DNA of 64,000 nt from Pseudanabaena sp. PCC 7367 (GTDB taxonomy: Bacteria; Cyanobacteriota; Cyanobacteriia; Pseudanabaenales; Pseudanabaenaceae), in contig NC_019701.1 of assembly GCF_000317065.1 (NCBI RefSeq), positions 2,385,001 through 2,449,000 on the forward strand, in the 5' to 3' direction. A program made the position numbers and the translations under genes. Positions within the stretch are counted from its first letter, which is position 1. Every line of letters starts with the position of its first letter. Below the pieces are notes generated by a model, which saw only the letters and a program-made list of their open reading frames with translations, had not been told where the DNA came from and did not search any database. Of the stretch, positions 8,528-16,015 are shown one piece after another.

Positions 8528-9205
8528 TCAAATGCTCTCTAGAAGCATATTTGAAGTTGCAACTGCACCAAAAACTCCTCCCTGCATTTTTATCATACTC
8601 AAGGCGGCAAGATAGTTTTGATAGTCGGTAGCACCCGTGCAATCGGCAAGTACAAGGCATTCATAGCCGCGATCGTTGGCTTCCCGCATCGTGGTATGCA
8701 CACAGACATCGGTAGTAATACCAGTCAAAATCAGATTCTGAATCCCTTTGCCCCTCAGCAACAAATCTAAGTCCGTTGCATAGAAAGCCCCTTTGCCAGG
8801 TTTATCAACGATGGTCTCGCCGAATAAGGGTGCCAATTCAGGAATAATTTCCCAACCAGGCTCACCCCGCACTAAGATTTTGCCGCAAGGCCCTTGATCA
8901 CCAATCCCTGCGCCAATTTGACGACTCCGCCATCGTTTATTAGCTGGTAGATCGGACAAATCCGGTCGATGTCCTTCGCGGGTGTGAATAATATAGAACC
9001 CCTTCTGGCGCATAGCTTCAAGCACTTGCTTAATCGGCTCCAAAGGGGCTCTCGTTAGGGATAGATCATAGCCCATTTTATCCACATAGCCACCGACCCC
9101 GCAGAAGTCAGTCTGCATATCAATGATGATCAAGGCGGTGTTATCGGGGCGCAGATCGCCATTGTATGGATATTTATAGGGGTCTGAGTTGATGTATGTA
9201 GCCAT
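8528..9205 (-). CDS. biuH: Biuret-hydrolase-like cysteine hydrolase (isochorismatase superfamily)
   Basis: 225 residues from the ATG at 9205. An alternative in-frame ATG at 9235, inside a hexamer repeat coding MDMDMDMD, would add ten. The catalytic set of the cysteine-hydrolase superfamily is visible: Asp33 in DMQTDF, a Lys in DKPGKGAF and nucleophile Cys168 in [16 protein letters not shown]. The stretches [20 protein letters not shown]-like (about 73-92) and [12 protein letters not shown], as I remember the family, match biuret amidohydrolases rather than isochorismatase or nicotinamidase. Predicted reaction: biuret + water to allophanate + ammonia, in the cytoplasm. It follows formamidase on the same strand by about 10-40 bp. 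The product allophanate would be consumed by the split allophanate hydrolase at 14.1-16.0 kb. Ureidoacrylate hydrolase (RutB type) is the main alternative. Confidence 0.75.
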
Positions 9206-9212
9206 TTGGGTA

Positions 9213-9239
9213 TCCATATCCATATCCATATCCATGTAT
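9213..9239. repeat. Hexamer tandem repeat at the start of the biuret-hydrolase gene
   Basis: About four copies of CATATC (TATCCA in other phase). On the minus strand they encode Met-Asp-Met-Asp repeats, giving several in-frame ATGs in the 10-40 bp gap after the formamidase stop. Slippage here could change N-terminal length or translational coupling. Confidence 0.7.
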
Positions 9240-9245
9240 CCACAG

Positions 9246-10265
9246 CTAAGCCTTGACTGCTTCGGAGATTTCTTCGCCAGCATAGAGGCGATCGGGGACT
9301 GGGAAACCACAGGAAGTACCATCTGTATAAACCACTTCTTCTTCCCAGGGCAATCGATAGTTGCCATCGACTAAGTCTTTCATATAGGTATATGGACAGT
9401 CCTGGGCACCACCTTTCACCGCCACATAGCCACGGTGGCCAAACTGGTAAATATTATTTTCCACTGACCAATGCTGACGGGCTTCTCTGACTAGATCGGG
9501 ACGCACTTCGGCGGTAATGATTTCATCGGGGCGATTGCCACCGGTTACCAACGGCGTACCATCATAGTTAATAATCATGCCTTCGCCCATCGAGTCAAAG
9601 GTGCCATCACTACCGCACATACAAACTGAGGCAGTATAAATTAGGTTGCAGAAAGCATTAGCCTGGTTGGTGATTTGCCAAGAATGGCGGATTGGCGCAG
9701 TATATCCCGCTGTGCGAATCATGATTTCGGCTCCTTTATAGGCACATTCACGCGCCATTTCGGGGAACATGCCATCATGGCAAATAATTAGAGCTAGCTT
9801 GCTGCCGTTGGGTCCTTCACAGACAGGGATACCAATGTTGCCAGGCTCCCAGGGCTCAACCGGAACCCAAGGATGCAGCTTACGATAATACAGCTTGATC
9901 TCGCCTTGGTTATCAATAATTAGACCACTGTTGTAGGGGTTGCCTTTGGGGTTATATTCCATGATCGAAAAGCAACCCCAGATGTCATTCTCCTGACAGG
10001 CTATCTTGAATGCCTCCACCTCTGGCCCATCCAATCGACACATGATTTCTGGATTGGTATCCATCGAAAGACCATGCAAGGAGTATTCTGGGAAAACTAC
10101 CAGATCCATGGTGGGCAGGTTACGTCGAGCTTTTGCCACCATGTCGCAGATCTGTTTAGTTTGGGCAGAAAGATCGGCTGGGGTGACAACATTGGGTAGT
10201 TGCAATTGCACCATACCCAGCACCACACCATTAGGAGCTTTATTTAATCCACCAAGTCCACTCAT
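9246..10265 (-). CDS. amiF: Formamidase (AmiF-type, nitrilase superfamily)
   Basis: 339 residues, the usual length for AmiF. The nitrilase-superfamily triad is in place: Glu60 (VVFPEYS), Lys129 (YYRKLHPW) and Cys162 ([10 protein letters not shown]). The segments [17 protein letters not shown] and [17 protein letters not shown], together with the C-terminal [18 protein letters not shown], fit formamidase (formamide to formate + ammonia) better than the longer-chain aliphatic amidase AmiE, from recall of both families. It is cytoplasmic. It sits third in the run nitrile hydratase beta, alpha, formamidase, biuret hydrolase, 141 bp after the alpha subunit gene. The pairing suggests that nitrile hydratase makes an amide, possibly formamide from HCN, that this enzyme hydrolyses. 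Activity on other short amides cannot be excluded. Confidence 0.87.
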
Positions 10266-10406
10266 TTTTATTATTCCCTGCTTAAACTTCTATTTACAGC
10301 AATTAACAGTCAAAAATAGCGAAACCGTTGTGAGCGTCTTGCGATCGCCCTATCTACTTAATTGTCTACCTGCCGATCCTTGGAAATATGCTGGATTGAA
10401 ATTCCG

Positions 10407-11117
10407 TTATGATTCATGATTTTTATTATTTTTACTTGGCTCTTCGGCAAAAGCAACACCAATCATGCTATCGCGGGTCACTAATTTAATCAGGTCTTCT
10501 TCTGCCCACCCATCAGTGTTTGGGGGGCGGTTGGGAATTACTAAATAGCGAGTATCCGCATTGCTATCCATCACTCTGATTTCAACTTCAGCAGGAACGA
10601 TCGTGCCGAATTCCTTTTCTAATACCCCACGCGGATCGATCACGACCCGATTGCGATAGGCCGTGCTCTTATACCAGGATGGGGGATGGTAGCCTAAGAT
10701 CGCTCTAGGATAACAGGAACATAAAGTACATACTACGACGTGATGAATATGTTCTGTATTCTCAACTACCTGGAGGTTTTTTATTTCCACCGTGTCGATA
10801 TCCAGTTCTCTGCAAGCTGCTTTCCCATCTACCAAAGCCCGGGCTTTGAACTCAGGATCTAGCCAGGCTCTTGCCACCAGCCGAGCGCCTAGCATGGGTG
10901 TTACCGAGTCTTCGCGCTCGATTTCCTTGCGGACTTCAGCGGCAGTAAAATAACCTTTTTGCTCTAAAATCCGTTCGATGGCGTGAGTTCTTTGCGCCCA
11001 ATAAGCCTCGTCATTATTGATAGGGGCGTGATCATGATCATGGTCATGTTCTGGCTCGTCAGGCACTTCGCTAGAATTAGCAAAAGGATATTTATTTTGA
11101 ACTTGAATATCTTCCAT
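10407..11117 (-). CDS. nthA: Nitrile hydratase alpha subunit, cobalt type
   Basis: 236 residues. The metal claw VCTLCSC lies at 129-135 (Cys130, Cys133, Ser134, Cys135). Thr before the second Cys marks the cobalt type; iron enzymes have VCSLCSC. The following YPRAILGYHPPSWYKS and VIDPRGVLEKEFG are standard alpha-subunit features. The two outer cysteines next to Ser are normally oxidised after translation. Residues 21-30 read EPEHDHDHDH, a His/Asp run that could collect metal. It catalyses R-CN + water to R-CO-NH2 together with the beta subunit encoded 99 bp upstream. Thiocyanate hydrolase gamma shares the claw, but the single-chain beta partner favours nitrile hydratase. No P14K or P47K activator gene is nearby. 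Confidence 0.9.
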   Translation of the reverse strand: MEDIQVQNKYPFANSSEVPDEPEHDHDHDHAPINNDEAYWAQRTHAIERILEQKGYFTAAEVRKEIEREDSVTPMLGARLVARAWLDPEFKARALVDGKAACRELDIDTVEIKNLQVVENTEHIHHVVVCTLCSCYPRAILGYHPPSWYKSTAYRNRVVIDPRGVLEKEFGTIVPAEVEIRVMDSNADTRYLVIPNRPPNTDGWAEEDLIKLVTRDSMIGVAFAEEPSKNNKNHES

Positions 11118-11216
11118 AGTTTAGTAATTCTTGGATCTGGGATCTTTGCGCTGATAGGGCTGTGGCTATTACGATCGCAATCTTGAACAATCTTAAACTC
11201 AAGCTTCAATCGACTT

Positions 11217-11915
11217 TTAATTGATTTTAGTAAGCCAATGTTCATATAATTCACTGCAAAGCGTATCTTTAGCATTAGCAGGCAAGCAAGCATCTCCCCA
11301 CAGATCCGCTAGCTCAAACCGCACCAGATATAACGGCATTACGGTAATCGGGTTGGCTAAATGGGCAACTTCTTCTGGATTCGGGTAGTTCCCTTGGATT
11401 TGAGCGATCGTGCCCTGTTTACCTAAGATATAGACTGGCGTACGGACATGTCCTGACTTTGGCAGTGATTCAACTTTCACCTTGTCTCCCACGTTGAATT
11501 TGAAGTTATTCTCATTGGGTGCAACTTTCTCAACTTTATAAGGAAAAGGAATTGGTGGTTGCTGGCCTAGAGCCGCTGGAACAGGAATAGAGCCTTGCGC
11601 TAATTCTTCTTCTGTAAAGAACCCCATCTCACAAAATAGCTTCTCGATCGCCAACAGTCGCCTTTCACCATAGGCAGGTAACCTCTGTTTAAGAGAATTT
11701 GGAATCCGTGCCGGCAACTGCCCAGTTGTAAACATACCATCAACTTCCTCAGCCGCCCTTCTAACCGGGTCCATACTGGGTAGTTGTCCCTTGGCAATCA
11801 TCAGATTATGCATAGAAATAATATGCTTCTCAAACCTGGCGATCGCAACTTCATCCGTATCTATAGATGATTTGTCTAGATGGCTATGGGGAACTCTTTG
11901 ATGTAATGAATCCAC
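11217..11915 (-). CDS. nthB: Nitrile hydratase beta subunit
   Basis: 232 residues, a normal length. The N-terminal helical half contains FEKHIISMHNLMIAKGQ and a segment on glutaryl-like helix packing around YGERRLLAIEKLF. The C-terminal half is the SH3-like barrel typical of the family: FNVGDKVKVE, then SGHVRTPVYILGKQGTIAQIQG, ending MPLYLVRFELADLWGD. The start is a GTG with no strong ribosome site. It is the first gene of the island's leftward operon, in the beta-then-alpha order usual for cobalt nitrile hydratases. It forms the hydratase heterodimer with the downstream product in the cytoplasm. A fused thiocyanate hydrolase alpha/beta pair is the alternative reading. Confidence 0.87.
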   Translation of the reverse strand: MDSLHQRVPHSHLDKSSIDTDEVAIARFEKHIISMHNLMIAKGQLPSMDPVRRAAEEVDGMFTTGQLPARIPNSLKQRLPAYGERRLLAIEKLFCEMGFFTEEELAQGSIPVPAALGQQPPIPFPYKVEKVAPNENNFKFNVGDKVKVESLPKSGHVRTPVYILGKQGTIAQIQGNYPNPEEVAHLANPITVMPLYLVRFELADLWGDACLPANAKDTLCSELYEHWLTKIN

Positions 11916-12410: not shown

Positions 12411-14003
12411 ATGGTTATTAAAAATAAAGGCTTGTTAGATTCCACTGCAACGGCAATTTTAGATCGCAATGCATGCCCTTGCGGCCAACCCCACTCAACC
12501 GCCGATCACTGGCAATTTGCTAACAGTATGCCAACGGACCCGGTGGATTTAACCGCTGATTTGGCGAAGATGTCGCTGATTAAGCCAGAAGCATTTTCCC
12601 TGGCCGATCGCATTACTGTGGCTGAAATGAGAGAGGCTCTGTTTTTTAAGCAGGCTGGACGTGGGAATAGTCGGCGCGAGAAACTATGCCGTGACTTGGC
12701 CGCTCAAGCTGGAGGATTGAGTAATGCTATGGCCGCAGCCTTTGGCCCCCAGGCAGGTATTTTCTTCGGCGATGTGATGCGTAAGAATCAGTTCACCCGG
12801 CGGCGCTTTCTCAGAAATGTGTCGATCGGCGCGGCTCTGGTGACTTTGGCCAGTTGTGGCAGTAATCCCGACACACCACCAGAGGCAACGGTAGATAGTT
12901 CCGCAGTTGATGGTTCAAATTTAGAGAAAACAACTTTAAGAGTTGGTTTTATTCCAATTACCTGCGCTACACCAATTTTGATGGCGGGGCCATTAGGGTT
13001 GTATGAAAAACATGGTTTAGAAGTTGAGCTAGTCAAGCTACCCAGTTGGGCGGCGGTGCGTGATGCGATGATTGCCGGGGAATTAGATGCATCCCACCTG
13101 ATTGCACCGATGCCAATCACAATGACACTGGGACTAGGTTCAGCTCCCTTTGATACCCGCACGGTGACCATTAGTAATTTGAATGGGAATGCGATTACGG
13201 TTGCCAATCGCCACAAAGAAACTGTCAAGGGTCCGGCAGATTTCAAGGGATTTAGAATTGCTTTACCATTCCCCCACTCAACCCATACTCTGCTTTTACG
13301 CTACTATTTGGCCACTGGTGGACTCAATCCCGATACCGATGTGCAGCTTGATGTGGTTCCTCCGGCTGATACCGTGGCTCAAATGGCGGTTGGTGAACTG
13401 GATGCGATGTTGATCGCTGAACCCTTTAACCAGCGCCTAGTTGCTGAGGGCGCGGGCTATATTCACATGCTAAGTAAAGAGATTTGGCCAGGGCATCCTT
13501 GCTGCATTCTTAGTGCCGGTCAGGAATGGATTGATACTAATCCCAATACCTTCGATGCGATGACAAAGGCAGTATTAGAGGCTTCTTATTTTGCGAAGGA
13601 TAAGAGTAATAGACCAGAGATTGCTCAGACCTTGGCTTCTAGACAATTCCTGAATCAGCCCGAAGATGTGCTTCAATCTATCTATACTGGTAAATATGAT
13701 GATGGGAATGGGAATACTCAAGATATTCCCGATCGCGTAGATTTTGATCCCTACCCTTGGAAAAGCTTTGCCTATTGGTTGACTACTCAGATGGTGCGCT
13801 GGGACTATGTACCAGGCGATCAGGCTGATTACAATGCAATAGGCGATCTTTACCTCACGGAAGTTGTCCAGAGATTGGGCGGTGAATTGGGATTAGATGT
13901 ACCTACGGACGAGCTTAGATCTGAGAATTTATTGTTTGATGCGTTTGATCCTAGCGATCCGGATGCTTATTTGAATGAGCAAATCGAAACCTATGGTGTT
14001 TAA
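12411..14003 (+). CDS. CmpA/NrtA-type ABC substrate-binding lipoprotein with N-terminal extension
   Basis: 530 residues. Residues 155-500 are the nitrate/bicarbonate/sulfonate-type periplasmic binding fold: TLRVGFIPITCATPILMAGPLG, then AALPFPHSTH-like and GELDAMLIAEPFNQR. Before it lies a Tat-lipoprotein signal, twin arginines in TRRRFLRN (129-136) and lipobox LASC with Cys149. About 120 residues precede the signal, with C-P-C-G and two His at 22-33 (possible metal site). The extension would stay in the cytoplasm unless translation begins at Met123. No permease or ATPase gene is near, so it must share a transporter encoded elsewhere or act as a sensor. Downstream of an NtcA box and inside the amide/nitrile island, its ligand is probably a small nitrogen compound (inference). 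Confidence 0.83.
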   Translation: MVIKNKGLLDSTATAILDRNACPCGQPHSTADHWQFANSMPTDPVDLTADLAKMSLIKPEAFSLADRITVAEMREALFFKQAGRGNSRREKLCRDLAAQAGGLSNAMAAAFGPQAGIFFGDVMRKNQFTRRRFLRNVSIGAALVTLASCGSNPDTPPEATVDSSAVDGSNLEKTTLRVGFIPITCATPILMAGPLGLYEKHGLEVELVKLPSWAAVRDAMIAGELDASHLIAPMPITMTLGLGSAPFDTRTVTISNLNGNAITVANRHKETVKGPADFKGFRIALPFPHSTHTLLLRYYLATGGLNPDTDVQLDVVPPADTVAQMAVGELDAMLIAEPFNQRLVAEGAGYIHMLSKEIWPGHPCCILSAGQEWIDTNPNTFDAMTKAVLEASYFAKDKSNRPEIAQTLASRQFLNQPEDVLQSIYTGKYDDGNGNTQDIPDRVDFDPYPWKSFAYWLTTQMVRWDYVPGDQADYNAIGDLYLTEVVQRLGGELGLDVPTDELRSENLLFDAFDPSDPDAYLNEQIETYGV

Positions 14004-14056: not shown

Positions 14057-14506
14057 CTAGCTATTACTAGCGCTTTTACTATCACTTAGATAACTGCGCC
14101 AACCGCCGCAGGCAGAAATATCGATCGCGGTTTTGATTCCTTCCGCCTCACAAATAAACCCTTTCACCTGTTTGCCCGATTCTAGGGTGATTGTGCCAAT
14201 CCCTAGTGGGGCTGGAATCAGGGCTACAAAAGAGCCAAAATTTACTAAAGGCATTTCCCATACCTCCACCTCGATCCCATGGCCAGTTTCCTGCTTGGGA
14301 TCGATTCTCATTAGACCTGGCTTAGGTAGCTTAGTGCCAGTTAGGGCATAAAGCTTGTATATCGGTGCAGTATGGGTTGCGGCAACCAGATGAGCCTGCC
14401 GATCGACTAGTTGATAGTTGAGCGGTTCGCCATCTAAGTGAGCCCCAACTACTGCCACTTCGATCATGGCTGCTGGATCTGGATCTTGCATTTGGCGATC
14501 GGGCAT
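14057..14506 (-). CDS. Allophanate hydrolase C-terminal domain as a stand-alone protein
   Basis: 149 residues. The sequence from residue 15 on (EVAVVGAHLDGEPLNYQL, TAPIYKLYAL, PKPGLMRI, IEVEVWEMP, FGSFVALIPAPLGIGT, then a closing GGWRSYL) is the family normally fused behind the amidase domain of allophanate hydrolase (AtzF/DUR1,2). In known fused enzymes this domain promotes decarboxylation of the N-carboxycarbamate left after deamination. Here it is a separate gene 75 bp after the amidase gene, same strand, same probable operon. Combined length with the amidase (626 residues) is close to a whole AtzF of about 600. The break falls in the linker, so both domains look intact. Confidence 0.85.
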   Translation of the reverse strand: MPDRQMQDPDPAAMIEVAVVGAHLDGEPLNYQLVDRQAHLVAATHTAPIYKLYALTGTKLPKPGLMRIDPKQETGHGIEVEVWEMPLVNFGSFVALIPAPLGIGTITLESGKQVKGFICEAEGIKTAIDISACGGWRSYLSDSKSASNS

Positions 14507-14581
14507 ATTTTTAGTTCCCCCTCAACTAGATTAATTAGAATGACTCTATTAACGACTTTATTTATATTTGTTATATTTGCA

Positions 14582-16015
14582 CTATTGGCTGACTTGGTGA
14601 TAGGTTATGGATGTGTTACCTAAAGGCAGATTGAGCTGTTGTTGGTATTTAGTACCCAGGCTAATCAGCAAGTTTTCATTAAACGCTGGCGCGATGAGAG
14701 TAATCCCAAACGGAAGATGATCGGTTCTGAATCCAGATGGAATAGCGATCGCGCAGAGGTCGAGTAGATTCACAAAATTAGTGTAGTAGCCCAGATTCGT
14801 ATTTAGCTGCAATGGCTCCTCATTTACCTGGCTGATTTGGTAGATAGTCGGTGTGGTTGGCACTAATAATAGATCCATCTTTTGCCATTCCGCCGCCGCC
14901 GATCGCTGATGGGACTTTAACTTATAGATCGATTCAAACACATCCACCGCTGTGTATTTATTCGCGCCAAGGATAATTTGGCTAGTTATTTCTAAGGTTT
15001 GGTCGGCGCTATGTTCAAAAAATGAGGCCAATGCTGCTAAACGCTCGGCGACCCAGGGGCCAGAATAGAGCAATTGGGCGGCATCATAAAATGGTTGATA
15101 GTCGATCTCTACTTGCTGTCCACCGATCGCTTCTAAATGGCTAATGCTGGTGGTGAACAGTTGCTGATATTCCCGATCGCCAAAGAATTCCAGCCAATCT
15201 TGAGTAGGGACACCAAACCGAAACCGAGATAATGATTGGGATGAGGATTTTGGTAATGCTTGTTGATTTGCTGGCAAAGGCCGATCGCGGCAGTAGATAT
15301 CTTGATGATCAAATCCCTGACATGCTGCTAATACCAGTTCTGCATCATTGCAGCTCAACGCAAAAATACTCACGCAATCGAGCGATCGACAGGCAGGCAC
15401 TACGCCTCGATTACTAATCAGACCGCGACTAGGCTTGAGACCCACAATGTTATTAAATGCGGCCGGTACTCTGCCCGACCCGGCTGTATCCGTTCCCAAA
15501 GCAAAACTAACTAGACCCGCTGACACCGCCACTGCCGAACCAGAACTAGAACCACCACTAATGTAGCGATCGTCAAAGGGATTTTGACAAACTCCATAGG
15601 GCGATCGCGTGCCTACTAAACCAGTGGCAAATTGATCTAAATTAGTTTTGCCGATTAACAAAGCACCAGCGGCTAGTAGTTTTTCCACTACCATTGCATC
15701 CTCAGTTGGCATATAACCAAATGCAGGGCAAGCAGCGGTGGTTAAAACACCGTTCGCATCAATATTATCCTTAAGCGCAAATGGAATCCCAAATAAGGGT
15801 AGGGATGGCATATCCTGGCGCATTGCCTCTAGCTGAGCTGCTGCCTGCAATACCTGCTGTTTGGGCAAAAGAGTAATCCAGATGGGATTATGCTCATGGG
15901 TGGCAATCCGTTCGTAGATCAGTTCCACGATCGCTGTTACAGATTGCCCTGAACGATAGGCCAGCAGCAGGGTATTAATATCCAGACTAATATTACTTAT
16001 GCCCTCTAAATCCAA
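14582..16015 (-). CDS. atzF: Allophanate hydrolase, amidase domain
   Basis: 477 residues of the amidase-signature family. The Ser-cisSer-Lys triad is complete: Lys82 (FALKDNID), Ser156 (GGSSSGS) and Ser180 (GTDTAGSGR). FGIPFALKDNID and the TAACPAFGYMP segment that follows match allophanate hydrolase amidase domains rather than GatA. It hydrolyses allophanate, releasing ammonia, with the second domain encoded by the next gene. Start is a TTG at 16015 without a clear ribosome site, so the first residues are uncertain. A near NtcA match (GTA-N8-TAT) lies at 16033-16046. It faces the binding-protein gene and supplies the last step for biuret made allophanate by the hydrolase at 8.5-9.2 kb. There is no urea carboxylase or cyanuric acid hydrolase gene in the window. 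Confidence 0.87.
   Translation of the reverse strand: MDLEGISNISLDINTLLLAYRSGQSVTAIVELIYERIATHEHNPIWITLLPKQQVLQAAAQLEAMRQDMPSLPLFGIPFALKDNIDANGVLTTAACPAFGYMPTEDAMVVEKLLAAGALLIGKTNLDQFATGLVGTRSPYGVCQNPFDDRYISGGSSSGSAVAVSAGLVSFALGTDTAGSGRVPAAFNNIVGLKPSRGLISNRGVVPACRSLDCVSIFALSCNDAELVLAACQGFDHQDIYCRDRPLPANQQALPKSSSQSLSRFRFGVPTQDWLEFFGDREYQQLFTTSISHLEAIGGQQVEIDYQPFYDAAQLLYSGPWVAERLAALASFFEHSADQTLEITSQIILGANKYTAVDVFESIYKLKSHQRSAAAEWQKMDLLLVPTTPTIYQISQVNEEPLQLNTNLGYYTNFVNLLDLCAIAIPSGFRTDHLPFGITLIAPAFNENLLISLGTKYQQQLNLPLGNTSITYHQVSQ

Follow-up and report, generated by a model that had tools for sequence, protein, structure and literature searches.

The two domains of allophanate hydrolase (AH) are encoded by separate, adjacent genes in the window, the 64,000-nucleotide stretch of Pseudanabaena sp. 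PCC 7367 DNA that was analysed. The features of the locus are the following.

8528–9190, minus strand: biuret amidohydrolase gene biuH, the core of a longer open reading frame (ORF) at 8528–9367; the product (BiuH) scores over the curated cut-off.
12411–14003, plus strand: neighbouring gene for a 530-residue ABC substrate-binding protein of the NMT1_2 family, between the AH genes and biuH.
14057–14506, minus strand: gene for the AH C-terminal-domain (AH_C) protein, ORF 14506–14057, 149 residues, ATG start.
14507–14581, minus strand: intergenic gap of 75 bp with five in-frame stops and a GAGGGGG ribosome-binding-like site.
14582–16015, minus strand: gene for the AH amidase, or N-domain, protein, ORF 16015–14582, 477 residues, predicted TTG start.

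ORF coordinates and gap agree with the preliminary description, in which the amidase and the C-terminal domain were separate genes 75 bp apart. The two genes share a reading frame, and read-through from the amidase to AH_C meets six stops, namely the TAG of the amidase itself and the five within the gap (TAA, TAA, TAG, TAA and TGA). In the whole-genome search, where the TIGR02713 match reaches 778.5 bits, these stops are reported between the halves of the match as “1 TGA, 2 TAG, 3 TAA”. The GAGGGGG motif ends 10 nt upstream of the AH_C ATG. A promoter/terminator scan found no minus-strand promoter- or terminator-like matches in 14507–14581; two plus-strand promoter-like matches overlap this interval, which is no more than chance. 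The scan as a whole gave 5 promoter-like matches and 1 terminator-like match and did not exceed the shuffled sequences (5.2 and 2.1).

The amidase protein matches the Pfam Amidase model with 312 bits. On its own, it reaches 636 bits with NF006043, for which the cut-off is 487, and 606 bits with TIGR02713, for which it is 511. Its closest solved structures are the allophanate hydrolases 4cp8, which we take to be AtzF467 (AtzF without its C-domain) carrying a 20-residue tag, and 4gyr, presumably from Granulibacter bethesdensis. Lys82, Ser156 and Ser180, which form the Ser-cisSer-Lys triad, are invariant in the seven-sequence alignment A1; the triad is intact, as had been claimed. Tyr317 and Arg325 are also invariant in A1; they are eight residues apart, as are Tyr299 and Arg307 of KlAH, to which we assume that they correspond and to which we ascribe a role in substrate binding.

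The AH_C protein matches PF21986 with 160 bits over profile positions 1–122 of 123, and the closest solved structure is the C-terminal part of 4gyr. Its His23 aligns to His492 of KlUA, a residue presumed to be catalytic, and Gly91 and Gly104 align to Gly559 and Gly572 (residue numbers were read from 5i8i, the numbering of which is taken as that of KlUA). The histidine is invariant in alignment A2. Each half thus matches its own part of the AH model, and the two domains together cover the AH models almost end to end, which bears out the view of an AH cut into an amidase protein and a C-terminal-domain protein. Both domains in one chain, usual for AH but not universal, are here two ORFs.

AtzF of Pseudomonas sp. 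ADP and the 4gyr enzyme resemble the AH of the window in both domains, in the triad and in the LLY-GPWVAER motif, but each is one chain rather than the product of two genes. Trypsin cleaves AtzF at Lys467, giving fragments of 48 and 14 kDa (PMC3944691). According to the alignment to 4cp8, combined with this cleavage site, the amidase of the window ends approximately 13 residues beyond the equivalent of the tryptic site, so that the natural break and the laboratory cut nearly coincide; the earlier statement that the enzyme is cut exactly at the domain linker holds roughly.

Two overlapping cyanobacterial samples, one of 386 genomes (phylum) and one of 388 genomes (class) with some genomes in common, were surveyed for AH. 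Their union contains 24 genomes with a true AH, of which 14, including that of the window, are split and 9 are fused; the remaining locus is cut off by a contig end, and 14 of the 23 judgeable genomes are hence split. Within the 386-genome sample, an AH amidase occurs in nine genomes, always with an AH_C partner beside or in the amidase gene, and the two parts are split in seven (G000, G060, G085, G185, G241, G278 and G338) and fused in two (G099 and G336). Within the 388-genome sample, 21 genomes carry an AH-type AH_C (E below 1e-43), 12 of them split, 8 fused and 1 unassigned; new loci came from 15 of these genomes, 7 each for the fused and split forms and 1 that ends at a contig edge, and the other 6 had already been counted. 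In the family to which the window genome belongs, AH is found in three of 38 sampled genomes (G000, G509 and G557), and all three are split.

Fused forms prevail among the closest relatives at large. The 80 proteins most similar to the window amidase, out of at least 586 relatives in the genome collection, form an uneven sample: 73 are fused and 6 are split, and AH_C is missing from 1. The six split forms come from Nostoc, Gloeomargarita, Myxacorys (on the same contig as G185) and three Methylophilales (L037, L047 and L073). The notion that AH is a single chain of approximately 600 residues therefore fits most of the other bacteria sampled but fails for many cyanobacteria and for these three Methylophilales. 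The split, presented earlier as a possible novelty, is already common in the enzyme family, which the preliminary description had named as a refutation, given its frequency in cyanobacteria and its presence in three Methylophilales.

The other split loci have the same gene order (amidase, then AH_C), strand and linker break as the window. They differ from it in spacing, and mostly in frame: the two genes lie in different frames in 16 of 18 loci, a few of which are near-identical, whereas the window genes share a frame. In 6 of the 18 loci the genes overlap by 4 nt, as expected under translational coupling; otherwise, spacing ranges from a 31-nt overlap to approximately 300 bp, measured from the start codon nearest the amidase stop. 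As judged from these sequences, the split is a gene arrangement rather than decay.

A few loci stand apart. The AH_C of G278 (L023, 1480–1827) departs from its relatives after approximately model position 98, perhaps through a frameshift, and this copy may be damaged. A genome of the Gloeomargarita-like group (G419, C1, 3027922–3032313) carries two AH-type AH_C copies approximately 4 kb apart, the second within a 462-residue open frame. Adonisia turfae encodes an AH-like amidase on a long tree branch (L098, 9980–11413), and AH_C was not found in the 21-kb locus. Relatives of the AH amidase at below 60% identity are also present on 164 plasmid records.

An 88-row amidase tree requires 5 changes between the fused and split forms and a thinned 58-row tree requires 6, and at least 4 changes are forced by well-supported (starred) branches in each; both trees were built quickly and carry a single support measure, and the direction of change is not given by the tool. 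Fission would be the simpler reading, since fused forms dominate both trees. In the 58-row tree, the window amidase joins those of the split genomes G509 and G557 (support 92, unstarred), and the three join a split Nostoc clade (support 85, unstarred). In the 88-row tree, which lacks G509 and G557, the window amidase is not firmly placed.

According to PMC5770610, sequential reactions are catalysed by the two domains of AH, N and C, and the earlier remark that the split separates the deamination from the decarboxylation step fits this published statement. AtzF467 is as active on biuret as whole AtzF but, unlike the whole protein, is dimeric, and its authors propose a role for the C-terminal fragment in organising the oligomer (PMC3944691). 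The glycine pair Gly559/Gly572 of KlUA, to which Gly91 and Gly104 of the window protein align, sits at the AH dimer interface; changing two glycines at this interface of KlUA/KlAH yields a monomer with severely reduced activity (PMC5770610), so a free C-domain might give less than full activity.

Very probably, then, the locus encodes a genuine two-protein AH, in which the amidase deaminates allophanate and the separate AH_C protein handles the product. The activity of AtzF467, the natural break near Lys467 and the conserved residues of AH_C together argue for a working enzyme. The amidase would deaminate allophanate at its Ser-Ser-Lys site, and the separately translated AH_C protein would process the carboxylated product, with ammonia and CO2 as end products. 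In this reading both proteins would be active, the reactions would follow this order and the genes would be co-expressed; the two proteins may also bind each other. The split would be an old form, inherited in the cyanobacterial lineage of the window and representing one of several independent breaks in the inter-domain linker.

Three other explanations were weighed. The two genes share a frame, as would be seen in a fused gene interrupted by an error of sequencing or by a recent nonsense mutation, the locus then being an artefact or a pseudogene. Yet because six stops interrupt the read-through, no single error could join the genes; both domains are complete, AH_C has its own start codon preceded by a ribosome-binding-like site, the assembly is 100% complete in 2 contigs, and relatives are split too, mostly in different frames. 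An error in 14507–14581, the refutation envisaged in the preliminary description, is effectively excluded by the gap stops and by these relatives, a recent mutation is exceedingly improbable as well, and the two-gene AH is confirmed as a real observation. Equally, the small gene is highly unlikely to have been recruited from among the stand-alone paralogues typified by the “allophanate hydrolase-related” protein (c4763) of E. coli. Such AH_C paralogues are common in cyanobacteria, and the E. coli CFT073 annotation includes one. The c4763 type was defined from aligned sequences by an NGTLMRG-type motif replacing GAHL and by the absence of an AH amidase partner. The window AH_C features the GAHL motif and an adjacent AH amidase, and is approximately 52–61% identical to the C-domains of fused and split AH versus approximately 25–34% to stand-alone paralogues; seven aligned paralogues have GTLM- or GSAL-type motifs at the GAHL position and are devoid of the conserved histidine. 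A c4763-type assignment was rejected on identity and motif.

In a quite unlikely alternative, if less so than the preceding ones, the free C-domain protein takes no part in catalysis and acts as a subunit for assembly or stabilisation, the amidase product decaying spontaneously. The full activity and altered oligomeric state of AtzF467, as well as the organising role proposed for the C-terminal fragment (PMC3944691), are in line with this explanation, and the Adonisia turfae amidase, with no AH_C nearby, indicates that the C-domain may be dispensable. Against it stand the invariance in A2 of the histidine aligned to His492 of KlUA and the fact that 9 of 9 AH genomes of the 386-genome sample retain AH_C, either fused to the amidase or encoded next to it.

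The CFT073 protein, which we take to be c4763 with 5c5z as its structure, is encoded within 9439–15403 of L138, beside genes for carbamate kinase, DUF1116, FdrA, DUF2877 and cysteine hydrolase proteins. It is, like the window AH_C, a stand-alone protein of the AH_C family, and 5c5z matches the window AH_C with an E-value of 9e-11. In contrast to the window AH_C, to which it is approximately 29% identical, it does not have the conserved histidine, and no AH amidase is annotated in the 49-kb CFT073 stretch.

For the two-protein AH of the window, BiuH is probably the source of allophanate in this genome, and allophanate would most likely derive from biuret rather than from urea carboxylase. The best solved match of BiuH is 6azo, listed in the database as “Putative amidase” and named as the Rhizobium BiuH structure in PMC7948467. 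The genome carries urease alpha, and a profile search found no urea carboxylase over the cut-off. The sole strong match is a 456-residue frame the size of a biotin carboxylase, below the cut-off, and urea carboxylase was rejected as the allophanate source. The AH domains of urea carboxylase/AH operons and of the fungal urea amidolyase KlUA are as in the window, but such operons include a carboxylase, whereas the window genome has none over the cut-off and features BiuH nearby. For instance, split AH genes lie directly 3' of urea carboxylase in G338, in G185 and in Methylotenera (L037), and a protein with carboxylase domains is encoded beside AH in Nostoc (L032).

Transporter genes of the SsuA/NMT1 type adjoin AH in the split G085 and Gloeomargarita (L067) loci and in the fused G336 locus, as well as in L098, which has no AH_C. 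The substrate-binding protein of the window begins with an N-terminal part that has no match, followed approximately 130 residues into the ORF by a twin-arginine-like and lipobox-like segment. Nitrile hydratase-type beta and alpha genes, which pass the Pfam cut-offs and fall below the NCBIfam equivalog cut-offs, are located at 9246–11915 and adjoin biuH and a formamidase gene, itself over its cut-off. The nitrile hydratase-type and formamidase genes possibly form a cyanide/nitrile-to-formamide route. A single operon comprising AH, BiuH, formamidase and nitrile hydratase is unsupported, as the substrate-binding gene intervenes on the opposite strand. No AH amidase was detected by tblastn in other cyanobacterial BiuH stretches (L147–L153, L156 and L157).

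The two-gene AH is apparently an undescribed but widespread variant of a known enzyme, with an ordinary explanation. The words “both subunits”, used of AH in Microcoleus vaginatus, could, we suppose, denote a misnamed PxpB/PxpC pair. Alternatively, this wording (“ah, both subunits”, PMC11844795) may be an earlier mention of a split AH. A clear prior description was not found in the literature searched, as far as the accessible text of PMC5770610, PMC3944691, PMC7948467, PMC6219798, PMC12625717 and PMC7558591 goes, and the words “split” and “C-terminal” are absent from the main text, as available, of PMC6737895, in which 308 cyanobacteria were surveyed for AH. The domains of AH can exist naturally as separate proteins, and fused and split forms were interchanged several times; the pathway can therefore persist without a covalent link. 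Searches that expect a single chain of approximately 600 residues would call a split AH truncated, a caution for annotation that bears on the use of biuret- or urea-derived allophanate by some cyanobacteria.

Diverged stand-alone AH_C proteins, here called class B, are those for which the E-value of the best AH_C match falls between 1e-34 and 1e-43. In the 388-genome sample, the genomes of which are not independent, the best AH_C match belongs to class B for 127 of 146 BiuH genomes versus 28 of 242 others, and 16 of the latter 28 carry a sub-cut-off hydrolase of the BiuH family. The best AH_C match is neither AH nor class B in 13 of the 146. In the 386-genome sample, class B occurs in all 11 BiuH genomes without AH, either in the same stretch as BiuH (7 of 11) or elsewhere (G346, G193, G011 and G170), and in only one further genome of the 386. 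Six genomes have both BiuH and AH: G000 and G557 carry no second AH_C, that of G060 is more distant (107 bits), and G467, G509 and G397 show none among the matches listed (down to approximately 131 bits), below which class B may occur. Three aligned class B proteins are devoid of the conserved histidine. It is conceivable, albeit rather unlikely, that cyanobacterial AH is basically a two-component system with a C-domain acting as a free protein, and that class B replaced AH entirely in the cyanobacterial biuret/triuret pathway, converting allophanate (or carboxybiuret) to urea (or biuret) without deamination. The association of class B with BiuH speaks for this reading; the missing histidine, the 13 BiuH genomes with neither type as best match and the non-independence of the genomes speak against it.

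Clusters of BiuH and stand-alone AH_C genes recur in cyanobacteria (L148, 5076–12173; also L149, L150, L151, L156, L164 and L168), usually with a second BiuH-like hydrolase and transporter genes. The second hydrolase is TrtA-like in L148, the sole one tested; it is closest to 6xix/6xj4, which we take to be TrtA structures, and the transporter of this cluster is of the PnrA-like/BPD_transp_2 type. TrtA is the subject of PMC7948467, and related trtA/biuH/transporter clusters have been described in nitrifiers (PMC12625717).
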